A stretch of 64,000 nucleotides of DNA, from assembly GCF_900177345.1 (NCBI RefSeq), contig NZ_FWZT01000021.1, positions 1 through 64,000 of the forward strand, written 5' to 3'. Shown here piece by piece: positions 22,661 through 33,755 of the stretch. Numbering within the stretch: position 1 is the stretch's first letter; each line of letters begins with the position of its first letter. The position numbers were made by a program, and so were the translations under genes. The notes beneath the pieces are model-generated. The model saw nothing but the letters and a program-made list of their open reading frames with translations. It ran no database searches and was not told the DNA's origin. The stretch comes from Pseudobacteriovorax antillogorgiicola. Its GTDB lineage: Bacteria > Bdellovibrionota_B > Oligoflexia > Oligoflexales > Oligoflexaceae.

Positions 22661-23584
22661 TTAGGGTTTCACCAGATTTAGTTCCTGATTATGGCAACCT
22701 TGCTCATCTTCACGGGCCATTTCAATCGTGATATGACGAAATCCATAGGGTGACAGGATCTCGCGGATTTTGGTTTTCACGCACCAATAGTCCTCGTTTT
22801 CTTGTGAAACAAGCTCGATGGTGCAGCTGAAGACATGAGTCGAGCCATCTAAGGTCCAAGCATGGTAATCCCTTAGTTTTCTTATTTCAGGAAGCGCTTC
22901 GACTTCATCTTGGATCGCTTTTAGGTCAACGGACTCGGGGACGTATTGCAAGAAAATCTTAATGGTACTCGCCAAACTTCGCAGCACATTCCAAATAATA
23001 TAAGCGCTAATACATGCGGCAAGCAGTGGGTCAAGCCAAGGCCATTTAAAGAAAAAAATCAGAATAGACCCGATTAATACGGCGACCCAACCGAGAAGGT
23101 CTTCAAGTAGGTGAAGGGATAGAACTCGTTCGTTTTGATTACTGCCTTTCGATAATTTCCAAGCTGTGTAGCCATTCACAGCAATGCCAAAGCAAGCTAG
23201 AGCAAACATTCCTTTGAAATCTGGAATCTCGTTTGAATTGTTTAGAATCCGGGGCACCGACTCCCAAAGTATGATGATCGATCCAAGGAGAAGAACAATG
23301 CCAACGATAAATGCAGATACCGCGGACAATCGTCTATAGCCATAGGTTACCCCCTGGGTGGCTTTCTTATCAGCTCGCTTTTCTAGGATTAAAGCCAGAC
23401 CGAGGCTTAGTGAGTCTCCGAAGTCGTGAATTGCATCGGCGACGATAGCCATACTCTGAGTGAGCATACCCCCAATCAATTCCACAATGGCAAAGATCAA
23501 GTTGAGAACAAATGCTAGCCTGATCCGTTTGACGGACTGACCGTCTGTGCCATGATGATGATGATGATGATGGTGATGACTCAT
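22661..23584 (-). CDS. CDF-family metal cation exporter with N-terminal poly-His
   Basis: The product is 307 residues, beginning MS and then nine consecutive His, with the ATG after GAAGGGCCTTC. Six transmembrane segments follow. The metal-site motifs are VADAIHDFGDS in helix 2 and HLLEDLLGW in helix 5, as in zinc/cobalt/cadmium CDF exporters. A cytoplasmic C-terminal domain with ferredoxin-like fold follows (about 210-300), including a DYHAWTLDG segment. It probably exports Zn or a similar divalent ion, with the His run acting as a metal-binding tail. It is divergent from a Fur-family regulator gene, which makes metal-controlled expression likely. Confidence 0.88.
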   Translation of the reverse strand: MSHHHHHHHHHGTDGQSVKRIRLAFVLNLIFAIVELIGGMLTQSMAIVADAIHDFGDSLSLGLALILEKRADKKATQGVTYGYRRLSAVSAFIVGIVLLLGSIIILWESVPRILNNSNEIPDFKGMFALACFGIAVNGYTAWKLSKGSNQNERVLSLHLLEDLLGWVAVLIGSILIFFFKWPWLDPLLAACISAYIIWNVLRSLASTIKIFLQYVPESVDLKAIQDEVEALPEIRKLRDYHAWTLDGSTHVFSCTIELVSQENEDYWCVKTKIREILSPYGFRHITIEMAREDEQGCHNQELNLVKP

Positions 23585-24463: not shown

Positions 24464-27175
24464 TTGAACAAGTTCAGCAGGCTGTTTCTGGCCTTGCTTT
24501 TGGGGTCGCCGTTCGCGTTGGCCTCGGAGCATCGCTTTGAGTTCAACTTTACTTTAGAAAGCATCCAAGGGTGGGAGCTTGAACAAAGCATTCGGTACTT
24601 TAGAAATGGTCAAGTTGTAGAAGGAGTTTTTCTCGATCAGCAGGACCTGATGATTGAAGAAAAGGACGACGGCACTCAGGTGACGGGAGCAATTTTCGGC
24701 TCTCCGGGCGTTGTTGGCTTTGATATCAATGGTAATGGTTTGCTCGATTATGAAGAACCACGCACCGTAGGCAAACCTATCGGCTCATATGATGCTTCGA
24801 AAAAAAGTGCAATTCTAGATTTAGGTGTTTTATGTCCCTGTCGCGGTCTTGTTGGTTGTGAACGGAAAGTCGATCTTCATGTGTCTATGGTGGATCGAGA
24901 GACGAAGAATCTGGTGTGGAAGGGTGAAGGGTTTACGATCAAAGTTGATCAGTCCTGTTCCGCTATGGTGATTCTAGGTTCGACGGTAGAACTCCCGCAA
25001 TTTAAATCAGGAAACCGAGATCTCGCCCTTCGTTTAAAAAGCGGAGATATGATCCATGATGTCCCAGTAGTAGGAATCTTAGATGAGCCAGGGCCTCCTG
25101 GACCTCCAGGCCCCCCCGGACCCGAAGGCCCGCGGGGTGAGCAAGGGCCTGCTGGGCCAGCGGGACCGGCGGGTCCAAAAGGTGATCGGGGACCCCGAGG
25201 TTATACGGGCCCACTCGGTGCCCAGGGGCCTCAAGGTATTGAAGGGCCGGTGGGGCCAGCTGGCCCAGCAGGACCAAGGGGACTCACGGGACCACGTGGG
25301 CCACAAGGAACAGATGGCGAGCGTGGACCCCAAGGAGAAATTGGACCCCGAGGTTATCAAGGGGAAGCTGGTGTCCCAGGACCCAGAGGGCCTGTGGGTG
25401 ACACAGGGCTCATTGGGGATCCTGGCCCCATTGGCCCTCAAGGTCTTGAAGGCCCTTCTGGCCCAACAGGTCCCCAGGGCGAGCGTGGACCCGCAGGGCC
25501 CGCCGGACCTGAGGGCCCAATCGGTCCACAAGGTGACGACGGTGAGCTTGGCCCCGCCGGAGATCCTGGCCCTATCGGCCCTCCCGGCCCGGAAGGTCCC
25601 ATTGGTCCCAAGGGTGATTCGGGTGATACCGGCCCTCAGGGCTTGAAAGGAGATACTGGTGATGAAGGCCCTGTGGGCCCTGTAGGGCCCCAAGGTGATC
25701 CTGGTGCCCCGGGACCAAAAGGTGATCGCGGTGAAAAAGGTGATCCTGGTCCGGTCGGACCTCAAGGCCCTCTTGGGGAAACTGGTGATGAGGGAGCTCC
25801 TGGGCCTCAAGGGGTTCAGGGCCCTATAGGCCCCCGTGGTCCTGCTGGGGCTGCTGGTCCCGCCGGCCCGGAAGGGCCCGCTGGTCCTGAAGGTTTACCC
25901 GGCCCTGAAGGTGAGCGAGGGCCGCAAGGTGATCCGGGAATTCAAGGCCCTCCCGGTGTTCAAGGTCCTCAGGGAATTGAAGGCGAACCGGGCTCACAAG
26001 GGCCACGAGGTTTACCAGGTCCGCAGGGTGATCCTGGTGTTCAAGGGGAACAAGGCCCTGCTGGGGTTAAAGGAGATACAGGCCCCATCGGTCCGGCAGG
26101 CCCCATTGGTCCGTCGGGCCCAGAAGGTGATGCTGGTCCTCAGGGCCCCATCGGACCGAAAGGTGATATTGGACCTGCTGGCCCCCAAGGTCTATCCGGT
26201 CCCAAAGGTGAAAAAGGCGATGTTGGTCCCGCTGGGCTGCAAGGCCCAGAAGGTGATCCAGGCCCTCAAGGAGACATTGGACCTTCTGGTCCGAAAGGTG
26301 ATCCGGGACCACAAGGGCCAAAAGGCGACATAGGTGATACTGGGCCACAAGGCTTGACGGGCCCGGAAGGGCCTGAAGGTCCTCAAGGGGAACCAGGAGT
26401 TGATGGCTTACCAGGGCCGGTTGGCCCCCGAGGCCCAACTGGTGATGTCGGGCCTCAAGGCTTGGAAGGCCCCGAGGGTCCCCAGGGTTTGGAGGGTCCT
26501 GCTGGTCCCCAAGGCCCCGTTGGTCCCGCAGGAGAAGCTGGCCCTGAAGGTCCCGAGGGTCCCCGTGGTCCCCGTGGAGAGACCGGTGAGCAGGGACCTG
26601 ATGGAGAACGGGGTTTAACCGGCCCCCGGGGTGAGTCGGGCCCCAAGGGTGATCAAGGTGAGCCAGGCCCTCCCGGTCCGCGAGGTGAACAGGGAGACCC
26701 AGGAATTCAAGGGCCCAAGGGCCCAAGAGGGGAATCCGGTGCGACGGGGCCTGCGGGGAATTTCGCGAGAGACGGGGATCTCAAACCCTGCGATGCAACG
26801 GTAGGATATTTTGTCTGTCAAGATGGTGAGTTACTCAAGATTGGTGAACGCTACTACCAAGCGGTGCCAAGCTTGAATGGTAAGCCGGTAAGCTTGAAAA
26901 TGTTTCAGGGTACAGCCCCCGAGGAGGCCATCAGCGACTTCATCGACTGGCTGCCGGCTATAGGTGTCTATGAGGAAGTTATTGGAATAACGGGTACTTT
27001 TACCGATGGTGCAGGAGTCTCACGACCGATCAACGCGGGGCAGGGGATTGATATCAGGATCCAGGAAGGACAGTTTCAGGTGAAGTCCGAAGGCGCAGGC
27101 TTAGGCTCTGTGATTCATCTAAAAGTTGAGTCCCTGAAGCCCACTGGCACTCCAGTGGTGACCGAGAAGCGTTAG
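24464..27175 (+). CDS. Collagen-like exported protein 1
   Basis: The product is 903 residues. The start is a TTG after AGGGAGTCTAGCC, followed by a signal peptide (about 1-21). An N-terminal domain of about 185 residues has a [12 protein letters not shown] calcium-loop-like motif (about 87-98) and a Cys cluster (CPCRGLVGC). From residue 210 to about 764 the sequence is an unbroken run of about 185 Gly-X-Y triplets rich in GPQ, GPA, GPI and GDP. A C-terminal domain of about 138 residues (LLKIGERYY) follows. The layout implies a secreted trimeric fibre with globular ends. It is a paralogue of the protein at 30.2-33.6 kb. A pup-like operon lies 233 bases downstream. Confidence 0.88.
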
Positions 27176-27192: not shown

Positions 27193-27215
27193 CTCGGGGG
27201 ATTTTTGCCCCCGAG
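27193..27215 (+). terminator. Strong hairpin after collagen gene 1
   Basis: CTCGGGGG (27193-27200) pairs perfectly with CCCCCGAG (27208-27215) around a seven-base loop containing five T's. It lies 17 bases past the stop. A T-run follows a separate, second hairpin at 27252-27282, so the two may work together. Confidence 0.5.
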
Positions 27216-27408: not shown

Positions 27409-27558
27409 ATGAAACAAAATGCCCTTAAAGTGGTGGATCTTGAAGTATCAGAGATTGCACGGCAATGGGAAGACATGGAGACAGCGATAGCTGCCGACGC
27501 TCGGATCGCGGCGGAAGCCTATGTGAAGTCTGCCAAGGTCGATTTAGGTGGCGAGTGA
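27409..27558 (+). CDS. Pup-like small modifier ending in Gly-Gly-Glu
   Basis: The product is a 49-residue protein with an ATG after AAAGGAGTTGGCGTT. It is charged, Ala-rich and probably helical over residues 8-42, without Cys or a signal peptide. It ends VDLGGE, and Pup-type modifiers end in GGQ or GGE. A C-terminal Glu is the form that PafA can attach without prior deamidation by Dop. The stop lies inside the next gene's start region (11-base overlap), implying coupled translation with a PafA-family ligase. Mycobacterial Pup is longer (64 residues) and overall similarity is slight, except for an AYVKSAK stretch that recalls AYVQKGGQ. The call therefore rests on the end, the size and the partner gene. 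Confidence 0.75.
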   Translation: MKQNALKVVDLEVSEIARQWEDMETAIAADARIAAEAYVKSAKVDLGGE

Positions 27559-29320
27559 TCAGTCCCACCATCTGTTAGGGCAAGAAACTGAACTTGCCAT
27601 ACGCTTCCAGGAAAGGAACGGAGACCATCCTGGAAACAAAGTCATCTTCGATTACATGGCCCGTGCCATAAAATCCATTGTTAAAACCAAACCTGGTAAG
27701 CGGAACTTCATTCAGGATCAATTCTTTGTCCAGAATGGAGGTGCTGTATATTATGAGCATCATCCACAAAGCCTGCGGCGTGGACTGATTGAATCAGCGA
27801 CCCCTGAGTGTCATTCGGCTCATGAACTGATCCTATATCAAAGAGCCCAAGAGGCATTGTTGATCAAGGCCTTACCCATGGCTCAAAAAATGATGTCTTA
27901 TGATGGCTACGAAGGTGAACTTAGCCTCTTAAAAAATTGCCGGGATTATGAGGGCAATACCTATGGTAGCCAGGAAAACTATGACTCCTTCGTTGCAGAA
28001 GGTTGGCGTTGGTACATGCTCATTGCGTGCCTGCTAGCCTATGTGCCGTTCGCGTTGGTTTTGAAGTTAGTCTATCTCACTCTTCTCGTGCCCTTCGTGA
28101 TGATTATCTTTACTAGTAAGGTTTTTATCGAGTTATTGCTAGCTATCAGTTCCTTAGGGCCGCTGGAAAAGGTGTTAAACCGGATCAAGGCCGGTAGCTC
28201 GTGGCGGACCTTCTTGCAATCGGGTATTCTGCGATTCGATTTTGAGGCCGAGGATACCGAAGAGACTCTTCTAAAAGTGGAGTATTCCCTATTCTATCCA
28301 CTGTTTTGGATTAGCTATAAACCTTTGATTATGCTCTATAATCAATTCGCATTTGGGCCTCAACGTCAGGCTATACATAGCCATGTGATTTCGAGGATTA
28401 TATTTACTGGTGCTGGTTCTTTAATTGAGAATGATCGCTTCATTCTCTCTGAAAAATCTCTAGCCATTAACTGCTTTTTGCGCCGCAGCATCCATAGAAA
28501 CGACAAACCATTGTTTGATTGTGGCAACCTCATAAAAGAGTACGAACTGGCTCTTTGGGAGTTGTTTTTGCTGAGGGTCCATTCGTGGGCGACTCTTTTC
28601 AAACGGGAGCAGCGCTTACAAATCGCTTTTTCAGACTCCAATCGTTGCCATTTCTCCGAATTTTTGAAAGTTGGCAGCACATCGTTGGTTGTTCGGTTGG
28701 CAAATGATGGGTTTCTTAACGATGCCCCAGAATTTTTAGAACCCATCAAAGCGCTTGGGGAGGTCTCTCGCGACATTGATTTGAAGCAGACCTATCCCAT
28801 GAAAGACGGCAGCACTATGAATGCTATCGAAATTCAACAATGGTACTGCCAGCGCGCCAAGGAATATCTTCAGACGGGGCCAGTGAACATAGAGGATCAT
28901 GAGGTGGTTCGGTTGTGGGAACAAACCTTGGCAACCCTTCAACGAGATCCTGCTGCACTACTTGGGCGGGTAGATTGGATTACCAAACAATACCTTTTGA
29001 GCACTTCTGGGGAAGAGCTAGACTACTGGGGACGAAAAAAAATCGACCTCAAATATCACGAATTAGGTGATGGATACTTTGAAATTCTTCAGTCTCGGGG
29101 GCTTACCTTAGATCTTTTTAGCGATGAAGATGTGGAGCGGGCGATTTACGAACCATCGTCATCACGGCGAGCGAAGGTGCGGAGTCGTCTAATCAAGAGC
29201 ATCGCCTTGGAAAACCATCCCATGACTATCTCCTGGAGCCAAGCAAAGATTGGCCGTTGGAATCCCAAAGTCATCTCCCTATCAGACTATCGCAAAACCA
29301 AGGAGATCGAAGAAGCTTAA
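27548..29320 (+). CDS. PafA-like Pup ligase with membrane insertion
   Basis: This 590-residue homologue of the Pup ligase PafA starts at a GTG inside the pup-like gene. Matching blocks in order are GQETEL (11-16), FVQNGGAVYYEHH (60-72), ESATPEC (82-88), GNTYGSQENY (136-145), FTGAGS (286-291), FSDSNRCHFSEFLKVGS (361-377), ALGEVSRDI (402-410), EIQQWYCQRAKEYLQT (428-443), DWITKQ (476-481), DLKYHEL (500-506) and SRRAKVRSR (539-547). Between 152 and about 278 it has an insertion of roughly 125 residues with two strong hydrophobic helices (156-178, 180-202) and a third segment (246-267). Glu70 replaces the catalytic Asp of PafA. No Dop-loop is evident. It likely ligates the 49-aa protein to targets near the membrane. 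Confidence 0.88.
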   Translation: MASDQSHHLLGQETELAIRFQERNGDHPGNKVIFDYMARAIKSIVKTKPGKRNFIQDQFFVQNGGAVYYEHHPQSLRRGLIESATPECHSAHELILYQRAQEALLIKALPMAQKMMSYDGYEGELSLLKNCRDYEGNTYGSQENYDSFVAEGWRWYMLIACLLAYVPFALVLKLVYLTLLVPFVMIIFTSKVFIELLLAISSLGPLEKVLNRIKAGSSWRTFLQSGILRFDFEAEDTEETLLKVEYSLFYPLFWISYKPLIMLYNQFAFGPQRQAIHSHVISRIIFTGAGSLIENDRFILSEKSLAINCFLRRSIHRNDKPLFDCGNLIKEYELALWELFLLRVHSWATLFKREQRLQIAFSDSNRCHFSEFLKVGSTSLVVRLANDGFLNDAPEFLEPIKALGEVSRDIDLKQTYPMKDGSTMNAIEIQQWYCQRAKEYLQTGPVNIEDHEVVRLWEQTLATLQRDPAALLGRVDWITKQYLLSTSGEELDYWGRKKIDLKYHELGDGYFEILQSRGLTLDLFSDEDVERAIYEPSSSRRAKVRSRLIKSIALENHPMTISWSQAKIGRWNPKVISLSDYRKTKEIEEA

Positions 29321-29595: not shown

Positions 29596-30081
29596 ATGGA
29601 TCATCGTAACCGGATTCGCTTCAAAAATCGATATACGTGTGTACTGGAAGATTTAGTCATGTCTTTGGAGCATCATGTATATCATGCTCTGGAGAAAAAT
29701 CATGTTTCTCCATCCGAGCTTTTCTACTCGCTTCCCAACTATGATCGATTTTCTAATCAATTTCCGAAGGCTTGTCACTCCTGTCAGAAACCTTTCCATA
29801 GTCGGGATCATTACTTGAAACATACTGAGCCTGGAGAGAAGCCAATAGAGGATGGTGAGCAAGCGGTTGAATATAGAATCTGTGAATGTGGTAGCCCCAT
29901 AATTCTTGTGGCAGCTTGTCGCCGCGATAACAATCCCTTTGGTATGGAATGCCGGGCCTACTTTGATATCTGTGTCGAGAGGCTAGTTAGCGAGCAAGGT
30001 TTTGTTCGTAAAGAAGCCGAAGATTTGACGAGGATTATTTTTCAGCAAGTCTTTGAAGGAGTGGAGCAAAAGGTTTCATAG
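29596..30081 (+). CDS. Zinc-ribbon protein, unknown function
   Basis: The product is 161 residues without a signal peptide. The middle carries CHSCQKPFHSRDHYLKHT (about 60-77) and ICECG (about 97-101), two Cys pairs typical of a zinc ribbon, with His and Cys spares. The N-terminal 60 residues and C-terminal 50 residues are helical. The start may be the ATG at 29596 (AGGA is 11 bases away) or the ATG at 29659, which has GGAAG closer. It follows the ligase gene by 275 bases and has no terminator-like signal between them that I can see, so cotranscription with the pup-like operon is possible but not shown. Confidence 0.6.
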   Translation: MDHRNRIRFKNRYTCVLEDLVMSLEHHVYHALEKNHVSPSELFYSLPNYDRFSNQFPKACHSCQKPFHSRDHYLKHTEPGEKPIEDGEQAVEYRICECGSPIILVAACRRDNNPFGMECRAYFDICVERLVSEQGFVRKEAEDLTRIIFQQVFEGVEQKVS

Positions 30082-30151: not shown

Positions 30152-33100
30152 TTACATTTCCAAATACTGATAGAAAATGGTTAGAGGTTGATTGAGATAG
30201 TTGATCTCTGTGACCTTGATATGGAACTGCTGATCTGTGAAGCTCAACTCAAGGCCGGAACTTGGCATTGACGGCACAAAAAGGCCAGTGCGGGACATTA
30301 GAGTGCTACGGGCATCCACCACCTCCACATTCGCTGGCAAGATAGGGCCAATGGCAACGGGAAAGCCTAGGCTCACCTGAAGTTTTTCTACTTTCACGAT
30401 TCCCATTTTCAATATTGAAGAACCAATCACGGGGCTTGGTGTGTAGAAGCGCTCACCCAGCTTAAGCACATCCCCCATCAGGCAGATGCCCTCTGTGCTA
30501 GGATTGGCTGTGCATGATTCAACTTCTAAATCACCTGGAGGCCCAGGAATGCCTTGGGCTCCGGTTTCTCCTTTTGGGCCCCGTGGTCCAGTGTCTCCCT
30601 GATCTCCCTTTGGTCCCGCCGGCCCTTCCGGGCCTATTGCGCCTGACTCTCCTTTTGGCCCTCTAAGTCCAATCGGTCCTTCGGGTCCTTGTTCCCCAGG
30701 GTCGCCCTTATCACCTGTTTCGCCTTTTGGCCCCCGAGAGCCTTCCGGCCCGATTGGTCCCGCCGGCCCCGTAGGTCCTTCCAAGCCCTGAGGACCTTCA
30801 GGCCCTATGGGTCCGCGGATGCCTTCCGGGCCAGCAGGCCCTTCCGGCCCTTCTGGTCCAGTGTCTCCTGTTTCTCCTTTGGGTCCTCTTGGTCCTTCTT
30901 CACCAGGGAAGCCTCGCTGCCCTGGGGGGCCCTGGATGCCGGGGTCGCCTTTAGGTCCTCGATCCCCCCGTTCCCCCTGGTCTCCAGGTAGTCCCTGCAA
31001 GCCTTCTGGTCCTTGGGGGCCGGTAGGTCCTTCGGGCCCTCGTGGTCCCACCGGGCCCTGAAGTCCCTCTGGTCCTCTAGCTCCTTCGGGGCCCTCGGGC
31101 CCTTGGGGGCCTTCGGGCCCGATTGGTCCTTCGGGTCCAACGGGTCCTTGAAGACCTTCATCGCCTTGTGGCCCTGCTGGCCCTGCTGGCCCAATTGGCC
31201 CTTGCAATCCGGTATCCCCGGTATTGCCTTTTGGACCAGCAGGGCCAACATCGCCGGGATCGCCTTTTAGTCCCGGTGGTCCTTGCTCTCCTTGCTCTCC
31301 TTGCGGCCCTTCCGGTCCGATGGGGCCTGTTTCACCGGTATCGCCTTTGGGTCCCGGAGGGCCAACATCTCCAGTATCTCCCTTAGGCCCAGGTAAGCCA
31401 TCGGCACCATCAGCTCCCGGATCACCCTTATCGCCTTTTGGTCCGGCAGGCCCTACTTCGCCAGTATCGCCTTTTGGCCCCTGAGGGCCAACATCTCCAG
31501 TATCTCCCTTAGGCCCAGGTAAGCCGTCGGCACCGTCAGCTCCCGGATCACCCTTATCGCCTTTTGGTCCGGCAGGTCCCACATCGCCGGTATCGCCTTT
31601 GGGTCCCGGAGGGCCAACATCTCCAGTATCTCCCTTAGGCCCAGGTAAGCCGTCGGCACCGTCAGCTCCCGGATCACCCTTATCGCCTTTTGGTCCGGCA
31701 GGTCCCACATCGCCGGTATCGCCTTTGGGTCCCGGAGGGCCAACATCTCCAGTATCTCCCTTAGGCCCAGGTAAGCCGTCGGCACCATCAGCTCCCGGAT
31801 CACCTTTATCGCCTTTTGGCCCCTCTGGACCTTCTGGTCCCATTTCTCCAGATTCTCCTTTTAGGCCCCGATCGCCTTTTGGTCCTGGTGGTCCCTGCTC
31901 ACCAGGCTCTCCTTGCAGACCTTGAGGTCCTGGTTCCCCTTTATCTCCTTGAGGTCCCGGAGGTCCAGTTAGCCCAGGTTCACCTTGTGGTCCCTCTGGT
32001 CCAGCGGGCCCAACAGGACCCGTATCGCCTTTGTCCCCTTTTGGTCCTGGTAATCCGTCATCACCATCCGCCCCCGGATCCCCTTTATCTCCCTTTGGTC
32101 CCGCAGGCCCGGCAGGTCCTGTATCTCCTTTGTCCCCTTTTGGTCCTGGTAATCCGTCATCGCCACCGGCCCCCGGATCCCCTTTATCTCCCTTTGGTCC
32201 CGCAGGCCCGGCAGGTCCGGCAGGTCCTGTATCTCCGGTATCTCCTTTAGGTCCCGCGGGCCCGACATCACCGGTATCTCCTTTAGGGCCGGCAGGGCCC
32301 GTATCGCCTTTGTCCCCTTTTGGTCCTGGTAATCCGTCATCACCATCCGCCCCCGGATCCCCCTTATCTCCCTTTGGTCCCGCAGGTCCCGCAGGTCCCG
32401 CAGGCCCGGCAGGTCCTGTATCTCCGCTATCTCCTTTAGGTCCAGGGGGCCCAACAGGGCCTGTATCGCCTTTGTCCCCTTTTGGTCCTGGTAATCCGTC
32501 ATCACCATCCGCCCCCGGATCCCCCTTATCTCCCTTTGGTCCCGCAGGTCCCGCAGGCCCGGCAGGTCCTGTATCTCCGGTATCTCCTTTAGGGCCGGCA
32601 GGGCCCGTATCGCCTTTGTCCCCTTTTGGTCCTGGTAATCCGTCATCACCATCCGCCCCCGGATCCCCTTTATCTCCCTTTGGTCCCGCAGGTCCGGCAG
32701 GTCCTGTATCTCCTGTATCTCCGGTATCTCCTTTAGGTCCCGCGGGCCCGACATCGCCGGTATCTCCTTTAGGGCCGGCAGGGCCCGTATCGCCTTTGTC
32801 CCCTTTGGGTCCGGGTAATCCATCAGTACCGTCAACCCCTGGGTCTCCTTTATTACCTTTTGGACCTTGAGGTCCCTCTGGCCCTACGGGGCCTCTATCA
32901 CCTTTAGGTCCCGGAGGTCCTGGGTCACCCTTTGGTCCCTGCCCACCACCACTGCTACCGGCGAAGGGAGGAATTACGGAAAGGAACTGTGTCACGCCCC
33001 GCCGATTGGATATTCTAATTCCAACTCTTTCCAATGGCATGGAGAATAGCTGTTCGGGTAGGGGATTCGATTCCCCTAAGACGAAGGTGAGCCCGCAATC

Positions 33101-33634
33101 AGGACCCATGTTAAATGTTTTAAGTTCGGGGGTTGTCAAAGCCTCAGCTGTATCAAAGTCGAACAAGCTGATGAGGTAATCATAGGAGTCAGTGCAGGAC
33201 GATGTCCCGAGGCAGGAGCAATTGGTAATAAGATGAAAGTAGGCCTTGCGCTCGGTAGCCAGTAAACGGGTTTCGATGTGACTGGTGATACTGTTACCAC
33301 GGATACGGATGTCGTCAGAATCACGCTTACCATTTTGGTTCAAATCAAAGTCGATAAAAAGCTGTGAAATAGGTTTTTCGGTGAAAGCTATCAGCGTTCC
33401 TCGAATCCAAAGCTGGTTGTCTAGTTCAGTGAATCGCAGTTCACTTTCTTGAATCTCTAAACTCACAGGCCGTATTCCGTCATCACCTCTGATGACCGAT
33501 TCGATTTGAAATCCTTGGGTTTTGGGAATCGAAAAATTGACAGAAAATTTAAACTGAGTGCTTTCAGCTCCTTGTAAGGACCCTGATAGCAAAACGCACA
33601 GAGTCCAAACAAGGCTCGTGATACGAGACAGCAT
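30152..33634 (-). CDS. Collagen-like exported protein 2
   Basis: The ATG at 33634 follows AGGGAGGATCATCCC and begins the signal peptide, giving about 1160 residues; an upstream ATG in frame at 33685 is less likely. A N-terminal domain (about 215 residues) resembles that of collagen-like protein 1, with a calcium-loop-like [12 protein letters not shown] and Cys pairs. About 267 uninterrupted Gly-X-Y triplets follow, rich in [12 protein letters not shown] and GLPGPK. A C-terminal domain of about 126 residues contains LKLGERFY, matching LKIGERYY in the paralogue. High Asp/Lys content of the triplets favours interchain salt bridges. The two proteins could form related surface or secreted fibres. 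Confidence 0.88.
31325..31830 (-). repeat. 126-bp tandem repeats in collagen gene 2
   Basis: About four near-identical copies of a 126-bp unit (42 residues, 14 triplets, containing [12 protein letters not shown] and [12 protein letters not shown]) lie at regular 126-base spacing. The landmark CCCGGAGGGCC recurs at about 31353, 31605 and 31731, with a variant at 31479. The DNA identity is much higher than protein constraint alone needs, so recent unequal exchange is likely. Confidence 0.85.
31990..32840 (-). repeat. Variable-length tandem repeats in collagen gene 2
   Basis: At least five copies of a near-identical block encoding [17 protein letters not shown] recur at about 32030, 32133, 32310, 32473 and 32617, separated by variable numbers of GPA triplets. 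Spacing differs between copies, so copy number and length are likely to vary between strains. Confidence 0.8.
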
Positions 33635-33755
33635 GGGATGATCCTCCCTCTTCTTTTGTGGAAATCTATGCTGAGAATTATTCATCCATAAAGCTAAAAA
33701 TCCAATGAAAAACTGATAAACTTAACACGGACTGATTAAAGAGGAGTGATTGATA

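Follow-up and report, generated by a model that had tools for sequence, protein, structure and literature searches.

Gene pairs encoding a Pup-type modifier and a PafA-family ligase, unlinked to any proteasome, were described in Plesiocystis and Rhodopirellula by Iyer, Burroughs and Aravind in 2008 (PMC2588565). In these bacteria the ligase carries a transmembrane insertion of four TM segments after core strand 4, a membrane-protein gene is linked to the pair in both examples, and a membrane-localised form of pupylation was proposed. Single-copy planctomycete homologues later served as the outgroup for PafA and Dop (PMC7947786). No experimental study of a membrane-type ligase was found in the papers searched, a scope from which subscription journals and preprints were excluded. 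The architecture of a membrane-insert ligase was thus already known as a prediction, and an earlier note on the present DNA, which called the arrangement unfamiliar, overstated its novelty (PMC2588565). What is new is the extension of this type to Bdellovibrionota. Our analysis further adds that the ligases form a single clade apart from PafA and Dop, that all 30 share a Glu at the catalytic position, that each of eight genomes holds one modifier, and that the modifiers match no Pup model.

The window, a 64,000-nucleotide stretch of DNA analysed as a whole, comes from Pseudobacteriovorax antillogorgiicola (Bdellovibrionota, class Oligoflexia), a relative of predatory bacteria, and the earlier note was right to place the system outside Actinobacteria. 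Exactly as that note had read it, a plus-strand gene for a 49-aa protein ending in VDLGGE (MKQNALKVVDLEVSEIARQWEDMETAIAADARIAAEAYVKSAKVDLGGE; 27409..27558) overlaps by 11 bases the gene of a 590-aa PafA-family ligase (27548..29320, plus strand). The modifier gene is preceded by a strong Shine-Dalgarno sequence, AAAGGAG. The ligase opens with GTG directly after an in-frame TAG, and its translation is therefore probably coupled to that of the modifier gene. The layout is identical in a same-family MAG of Pseudobacteriovorax, including the TAG-GTG junction and the 11-base overlap. Between the two genomes the modifiers are 45% identical across 49 aa, with a dN of 0.46, a dS that is not estimable because synonymous sites are saturated, and most differences at codon position 3. 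The level of identity, the saturation and the position of the differences, together with the GGE-ending ORFs beside other ligases, argue that the modifier ORF is not a chance reading frame. In an Oligoflexales MAG from a different family, a TGA followed by GTA-ATT marks the opening of the ligase frame; there is no ATG, GTG or TTG 5' of its GxExE motif (L006 972). This ligase may start at ATT, coupled to the stop codon of its modifier gene.

The similarity of the larger protein to PafA, first noticed block by block, was confirmed by a profile search. The ligase matches Pfam PF03136 with an E-value of 8.2e-70 (236 bits, curated cut-off 25) and is the sole PF03136 gene of its genome. Its nearest solved structures are those of Corynebacterium glutamicum PafA (4b0t and 4bjr, E 1.6e-31 and 2.7e-31), and E-values against PafA and Dop structures overall range from 1.6e-31 to 1.7e-21. 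It scores below the NCBIfam equivalogs for both enzymes (PafA, TIGR03686: 171 bits vs a cut-off of 551; Dop: 148 bits vs 492). The superfamily motifs, GhExE, [HQ]x[NH] in strand 4 and DSN/DAN, are all present. The GxExE motif that handles ATP and Mg reads GQETE (residues 11–15, 27578..27592) and is conserved in alignments; the strand-4 motif (PMC2588565) is the QEN of GSQENY (residues 140–145, 27965..27982), with an insert directly 3' of it; and the DSN (residues 363–365, 28634..28642) aligns to the DSN/DAN of PafA and Dop; all three lie on the plus strand. The ligase thus shares with actinobacterial PafA the PF03136 domain, the glutamine-synthetase fold and the GxExE and DSN motifs. It differs from that enzyme by its score below the PafA equivalog cut-off, by Gln in place of His in the strand-4 motif, by an insert of about 115 residues, and by the residue at the catalytic position.

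At this position canonical PafA and Dop have the Asp of a YxD motif. In C. glutamicum PafA this residue is Asp64. The catalytic Asp has been placed beside Ser60/Ser67 of PafA (PMC7947786). The window ligase has Glu70 instead (27755..27757, plus strand), and in the same alignment, whose columns here include a short insertion, YxE followed by a longer loop is found in 30/30 membrane-insert ligases. Because Asp is replaced by Glu in this clade, the activity of PafA is not transferable to it without a test. The ligase belongs to the same family as Dop, although its genome holds no second family member. The replacement, and the fact that the Dop and PafA models score the enzyme much alike (148 and 171 bits), could be taken to mean that it is a Dop-like depupylase or deamidase, or an inactive relict. 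We regard this as very unlikely. A lone depupylase would have no source of tagged substrate; a deamidase would be superfluous for a modifier that already ends in Glu; the clade lies outside PafA and Dop alike; and motifs kept across 30 sequences do not look like decay. The clade-wide change from Asp to Glu offers a handle on the mechanism of PafA and Dop, and on the origin of both enzymes from a single-copy ligase.

The defining feature of the ligase, which like Glu70 had escaped the earlier note, is the predicted membrane-spanning insert of ~115 residues immediately after the QEN motif. From QENY to the next conserved Arg the window ligase has 137 residues, as against ~21 in PafA and Dop. All 30 membrane-insert ligases have 110–142 residues at this one place, with hydrophobic helices. 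By hydropathy, the insert of the window ligase comprises two strongly hydrophobic helices (residues ~154–201; 28007..28150, plus strand), which also appear as helices in a low-confidence model, followed by a weaker hydrophobic stretch at residues ~246–264; the total would be two strong and one or two weaker stretches. The structure model, built from five sequences, is of a quality (pLDDT 53) too poor to serve in a fold search. Judged by hydropathy, the insert corresponds to the transmembrane insertion after core strand 4 of Iyer and colleagues, and it may differ from the four TM segments of the 2008 type in having two strong stretches and one weaker. Because a single domain flanks the insert on either side, an even number of membrane crossings is expected. 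We infer that the insert forms a helical hairpin that would anchor the ligase in the inner membrane and leave the catalytic domain in the cytoplasm.

The modifier fits the Pup type in being a small protein (49 aa) with a Gly-Glu end (GGE) and a PafA-family neighbour. A small GGE-ending ORF immediately precedes the ligase gene in the window and at 15 further loci, and the relatives keep both the ending (15/15 aligned modifiers) and, with one exception, the adjacency. The exception is genome G381, where the modifier gene is on another contig; directly 5' of the ligase in this genome (L047, L088) we observed a small membrane-protein ORF that recalls the membrane-protein gene linked to the pair in the two 2008 examples. 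The alignment gives the consensus LxxVVxxxxxDAxxxPxxYLxETxVPxGGE. A profile of the modifiers (A5) has a single match in the window genome (E 5e-13, the window sequence itself being part of the profile) and exactly one in each of the eight genomes tested. None of the 15 modifiers matches PF05639 or the NCBIfam Pup models, which do retrieve a control Pup in A3 (3e-16), and a profile built from nine canonical Pups does not retrieve them. Profile-profile comparison with canonical Pup aligned the YL/FVK region over 27 columns (probability 2%, E 0.02), a signal too weak to prove homology, and this route was abandoned. The description "Pup-like" therefore stands as regards position, size and C-terminus and falls as regards profile, and it is in the former sense that we use it.

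Beyond the window's own genome, the gene pair occurs again in two further genomes of Oligoflexia, in a Spirochaetia-labelled MAG and in a series of Myxococcota. When whole genomes were searched, only 3/58 from the phylum as delimited proved to have the ligase: the window's own, the same-family Pseudobacteriovorax MAG and the Oligoflexales MAG of another family. It was also present in the Spirochaetia-labelled MAG (on a short contig that may be misbinned), in one MAG placed in Myxococcota, and in ~15/379 genomes drawn from Myxococcota. A search of 383 relatives, from close kin outward to other bacteria, gave no further case at E 1e-60. In an unrooted tree, built after columns with few residues, including those of the insert, had been removed, the 30 membrane-insert ligases make up one side of a 100/100 branch that separates them from canonical PafA and Dop, and the window ligase clusters (99/95) with the sequences from Oligoflexia and from the Spirochaetia-labelled MAG. 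We conclude from this tree that membrane-insert ligases are one clade outside both PafA and Dop.

The partners of pupylation were then a matter for the genome rather than the window, within which the earlier note had seen no proteasome, Mpa/ARC ATPase or Dop gene. Genome-wide searches upheld this: with PF03136 counted once there is no Dop; no PF00227 match was obtained, so neither a 20S proteasome nor HslV was found; and the OB domain of Mpa/ARC (PF16450) was not detected, while positive controls matched for both models. PF00227 and PF16450 had no match in G000, G001 or G023, and HslV was thereby also not found in these three Oligoflexia genomes. Since the completeness of the window genome is given as 97% and the assemblies in which partners were not found are drafts, we consider that Dop, proteasome and Mpa/ARC are likely, not certainly, absent from it. 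Nine Myxococcota genomes with a paired ligase each have one PafA/Dop-family gene and at most one PF00227 match. Where the sequence was read, this match is HslV, and its identification as a 20S proteasome was rejected (in L096 the motif was not matched); two 20S subunits, side by side, are seen where a genome has both PafA and Dop. C. glutamicum, in which pupylation (of ferritin) is independent of the proteasome, also lacks the 20S proteasome (PMC8223512). Unlike the window genome, it keeps dop and an ARC/Mpa-type ATPase (PMC8223512). The pair described here is a predicted tagging unit without Dop and without proteasome.

As the earlier note had reported, the pair stands between two long collagen-like genes, one upstream (24464..27175, plus strand) and one downstream (30152..33685, minus strand), and a 161-aa ORF (29596..30081) lies between the ligase and the latter. 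The two Gly-X-Y proteins, encoded on opposite strands, have non-collagen domains at their N- and C-termini. A perfect inverted repeat (CTCGGGGG..CCCCCGAG; 27193..27215, plus strand), read in the sequence between the upstream collagen-like gene and the modifier gene, is possibly the end of the upstream transcript; it was not called as a terminator, and no T run follows 3' of it. On the upstream side, a Fur-type regulator and the collagen-like gene are common only to the window and the Pseudobacteriovorax MAG. The window's plus-strand collagen-like gene also adjoins the pair in L012/L058. The collagen-like proteins were considered as substrates and rejected, their synteny being shared with one same-family genome only; they appear to be secreted, which makes them unlikely substrates of a ligase domain that should be cytoplasmic. 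Conserved neighbours in general were rejected on the same question: across about 17 neighbourhoods only the pair itself is conserved, with no third gene beside it. No conserved membrane-protein gene adjoins the window pair, a difference from the 2008 type along with its placement in Bdellovibrionota, although such a linkage is not essential to the type. By description, the two are alike in the insertion after strand 4, the adjacent small gene ending in G[E/Q] and the lack of a linked proteasome (PMC2588565).

This bare neighbourhood bears on two other readings of the pair. Proteins of the LysW kind are amino-group carriers used in biosynthesis. By analogy, the GGE protein might be a carrier whose terminal Glu is charged by the ligase with an amino acid or a small amine. 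The chemistry would be the same (a gamma-glutamyl amide bond on a small protein with a C-terminal Glu), and Pup-type degradation machinery was not found in the genome. Still, we hold this to be rather improbable: no biosynthetic genes are conserved in the ~17 neighbourhoods, a membrane anchor would not be expected of such an enzyme, and PafA and Dop, the closest characterised enzymes, work on Pup-protein bonds. The enzyme might alternatively modify mainly itself or one fixed partner, with the modifier acting as regulator of that partner and not as a general tag. Self-pupylation of PafA is known (PMC4783102), and one enzyme and one modifier per genome would suit such an arrangement. We find it unlikely, given that the neighbourhood conserves no partner gene and that the idea by itself does not explain the membrane insert.

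We rather favor a self-contained two-gene unit of the Pup type, and consider it probable that the membrane-anchored ligase attaches the modifier, through its terminal Glu, to lysines on membrane-associated proteins, either to regulate them or to direct them to a non-proteasomal fate. Established here are the gene pair, the family of the ligase, its active-site motifs and hydrophobic insert, the conserved GGE, and an assembly in which neither Dop nor proteasome is found; from these we infer conjugation, topology, substrates and the fate of tagged proteins. The reading is favored by the PF03136 match with GxExE, QxN and DSN kept in a single PafA/Dop-family gene, by the lack of PF00227 and PF16450 matches, by the GGE ORF upstream of the ligase in the window and at 15 loci with one modifier per genome (n=8), by an insert at the same place in 30/30 ligases without a third conserved gene, and by nine Myxococcota genomes that have no second PafA/Dop gene; the same proposal was made in 2008 (PMC2588565). 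Against it stand the modifier's failure to match any Pup model and its weak profile-profile signal, the Glu in place of the catalytic Asp, the PafA equivalog score of 171 vs 551, the pLDDT of 53 and the lack of a linked substrate or proteolytic partner.

In the proposed sequence of events, the modifier would be synthesised with its terminal Glu, which makes a deamidase unnecessary. The ligase, with its glutamine-synthetase fold, would use ATP to phosphorylate the gamma-carboxylate of this Glu, and the activated residue would be joined, as in pupylation, to lysines of proteins in or near the membrane. The hairpin would tether the enzyme to the inner membrane, its catalytic domain facing the cytoplasm, and thereby favor membrane-associated substrates. 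The mark could be stable and regulatory, or be read by another protease, such as a common AAA+ protease of the membrane or cytosol; because no 20S proteasome, Mpa/ARC or Dop was found, regulation or such an AAA+ protease is its most likely use. A bolder analogy, which we think has a small chance of being right, is a conjugation system separate from pupylation, and more than pupylation moved to the membrane, in which a catalytic-Glu class of enzyme would tag membrane targets with no proteolytic purpose; among these targets there might be a non-protein amine, for example an amino-lipid, as in Atg8-phosphatidylethanolamine. The two-gene unit bears on the role of pupylation without a proteasome, as the whole system here may be two genes. 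The genome yielded a single modifier and a single membrane ligase, while neither an eraser nor a degrader was detected, which makes the question of that role directly testable.

A second set of membrane-insert ligases (group B, n=14) belongs for the most part to genomes that also contain further canonical PafA/Dop-type matches; in one of these (G390), two adjacent 20S subunits stand beside those matches. No modifier of either kind was near group B ligases in the six neighbourhoods viewed, and a small downstream ORF considered for this role was rejected, as by eye it reads as GatC. Several of these ligases (L059, L060, L061, L062, L064) often lie 5' of gatC/gatA. In genome G088, two adjacent and very divergent PafA-like genes (L007 and L011) have long branches in the tree and no small GGE ORF was found nearby; they are followed by an aminopeptidase-like gene. 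Elsewhere in the window, a cation-efflux (CDF-like) transporter gene (22661..23584, minus strand) encodes an N-terminal run of nine histidines, seen in the DNA as MSHHHHHHHHHGTDG.
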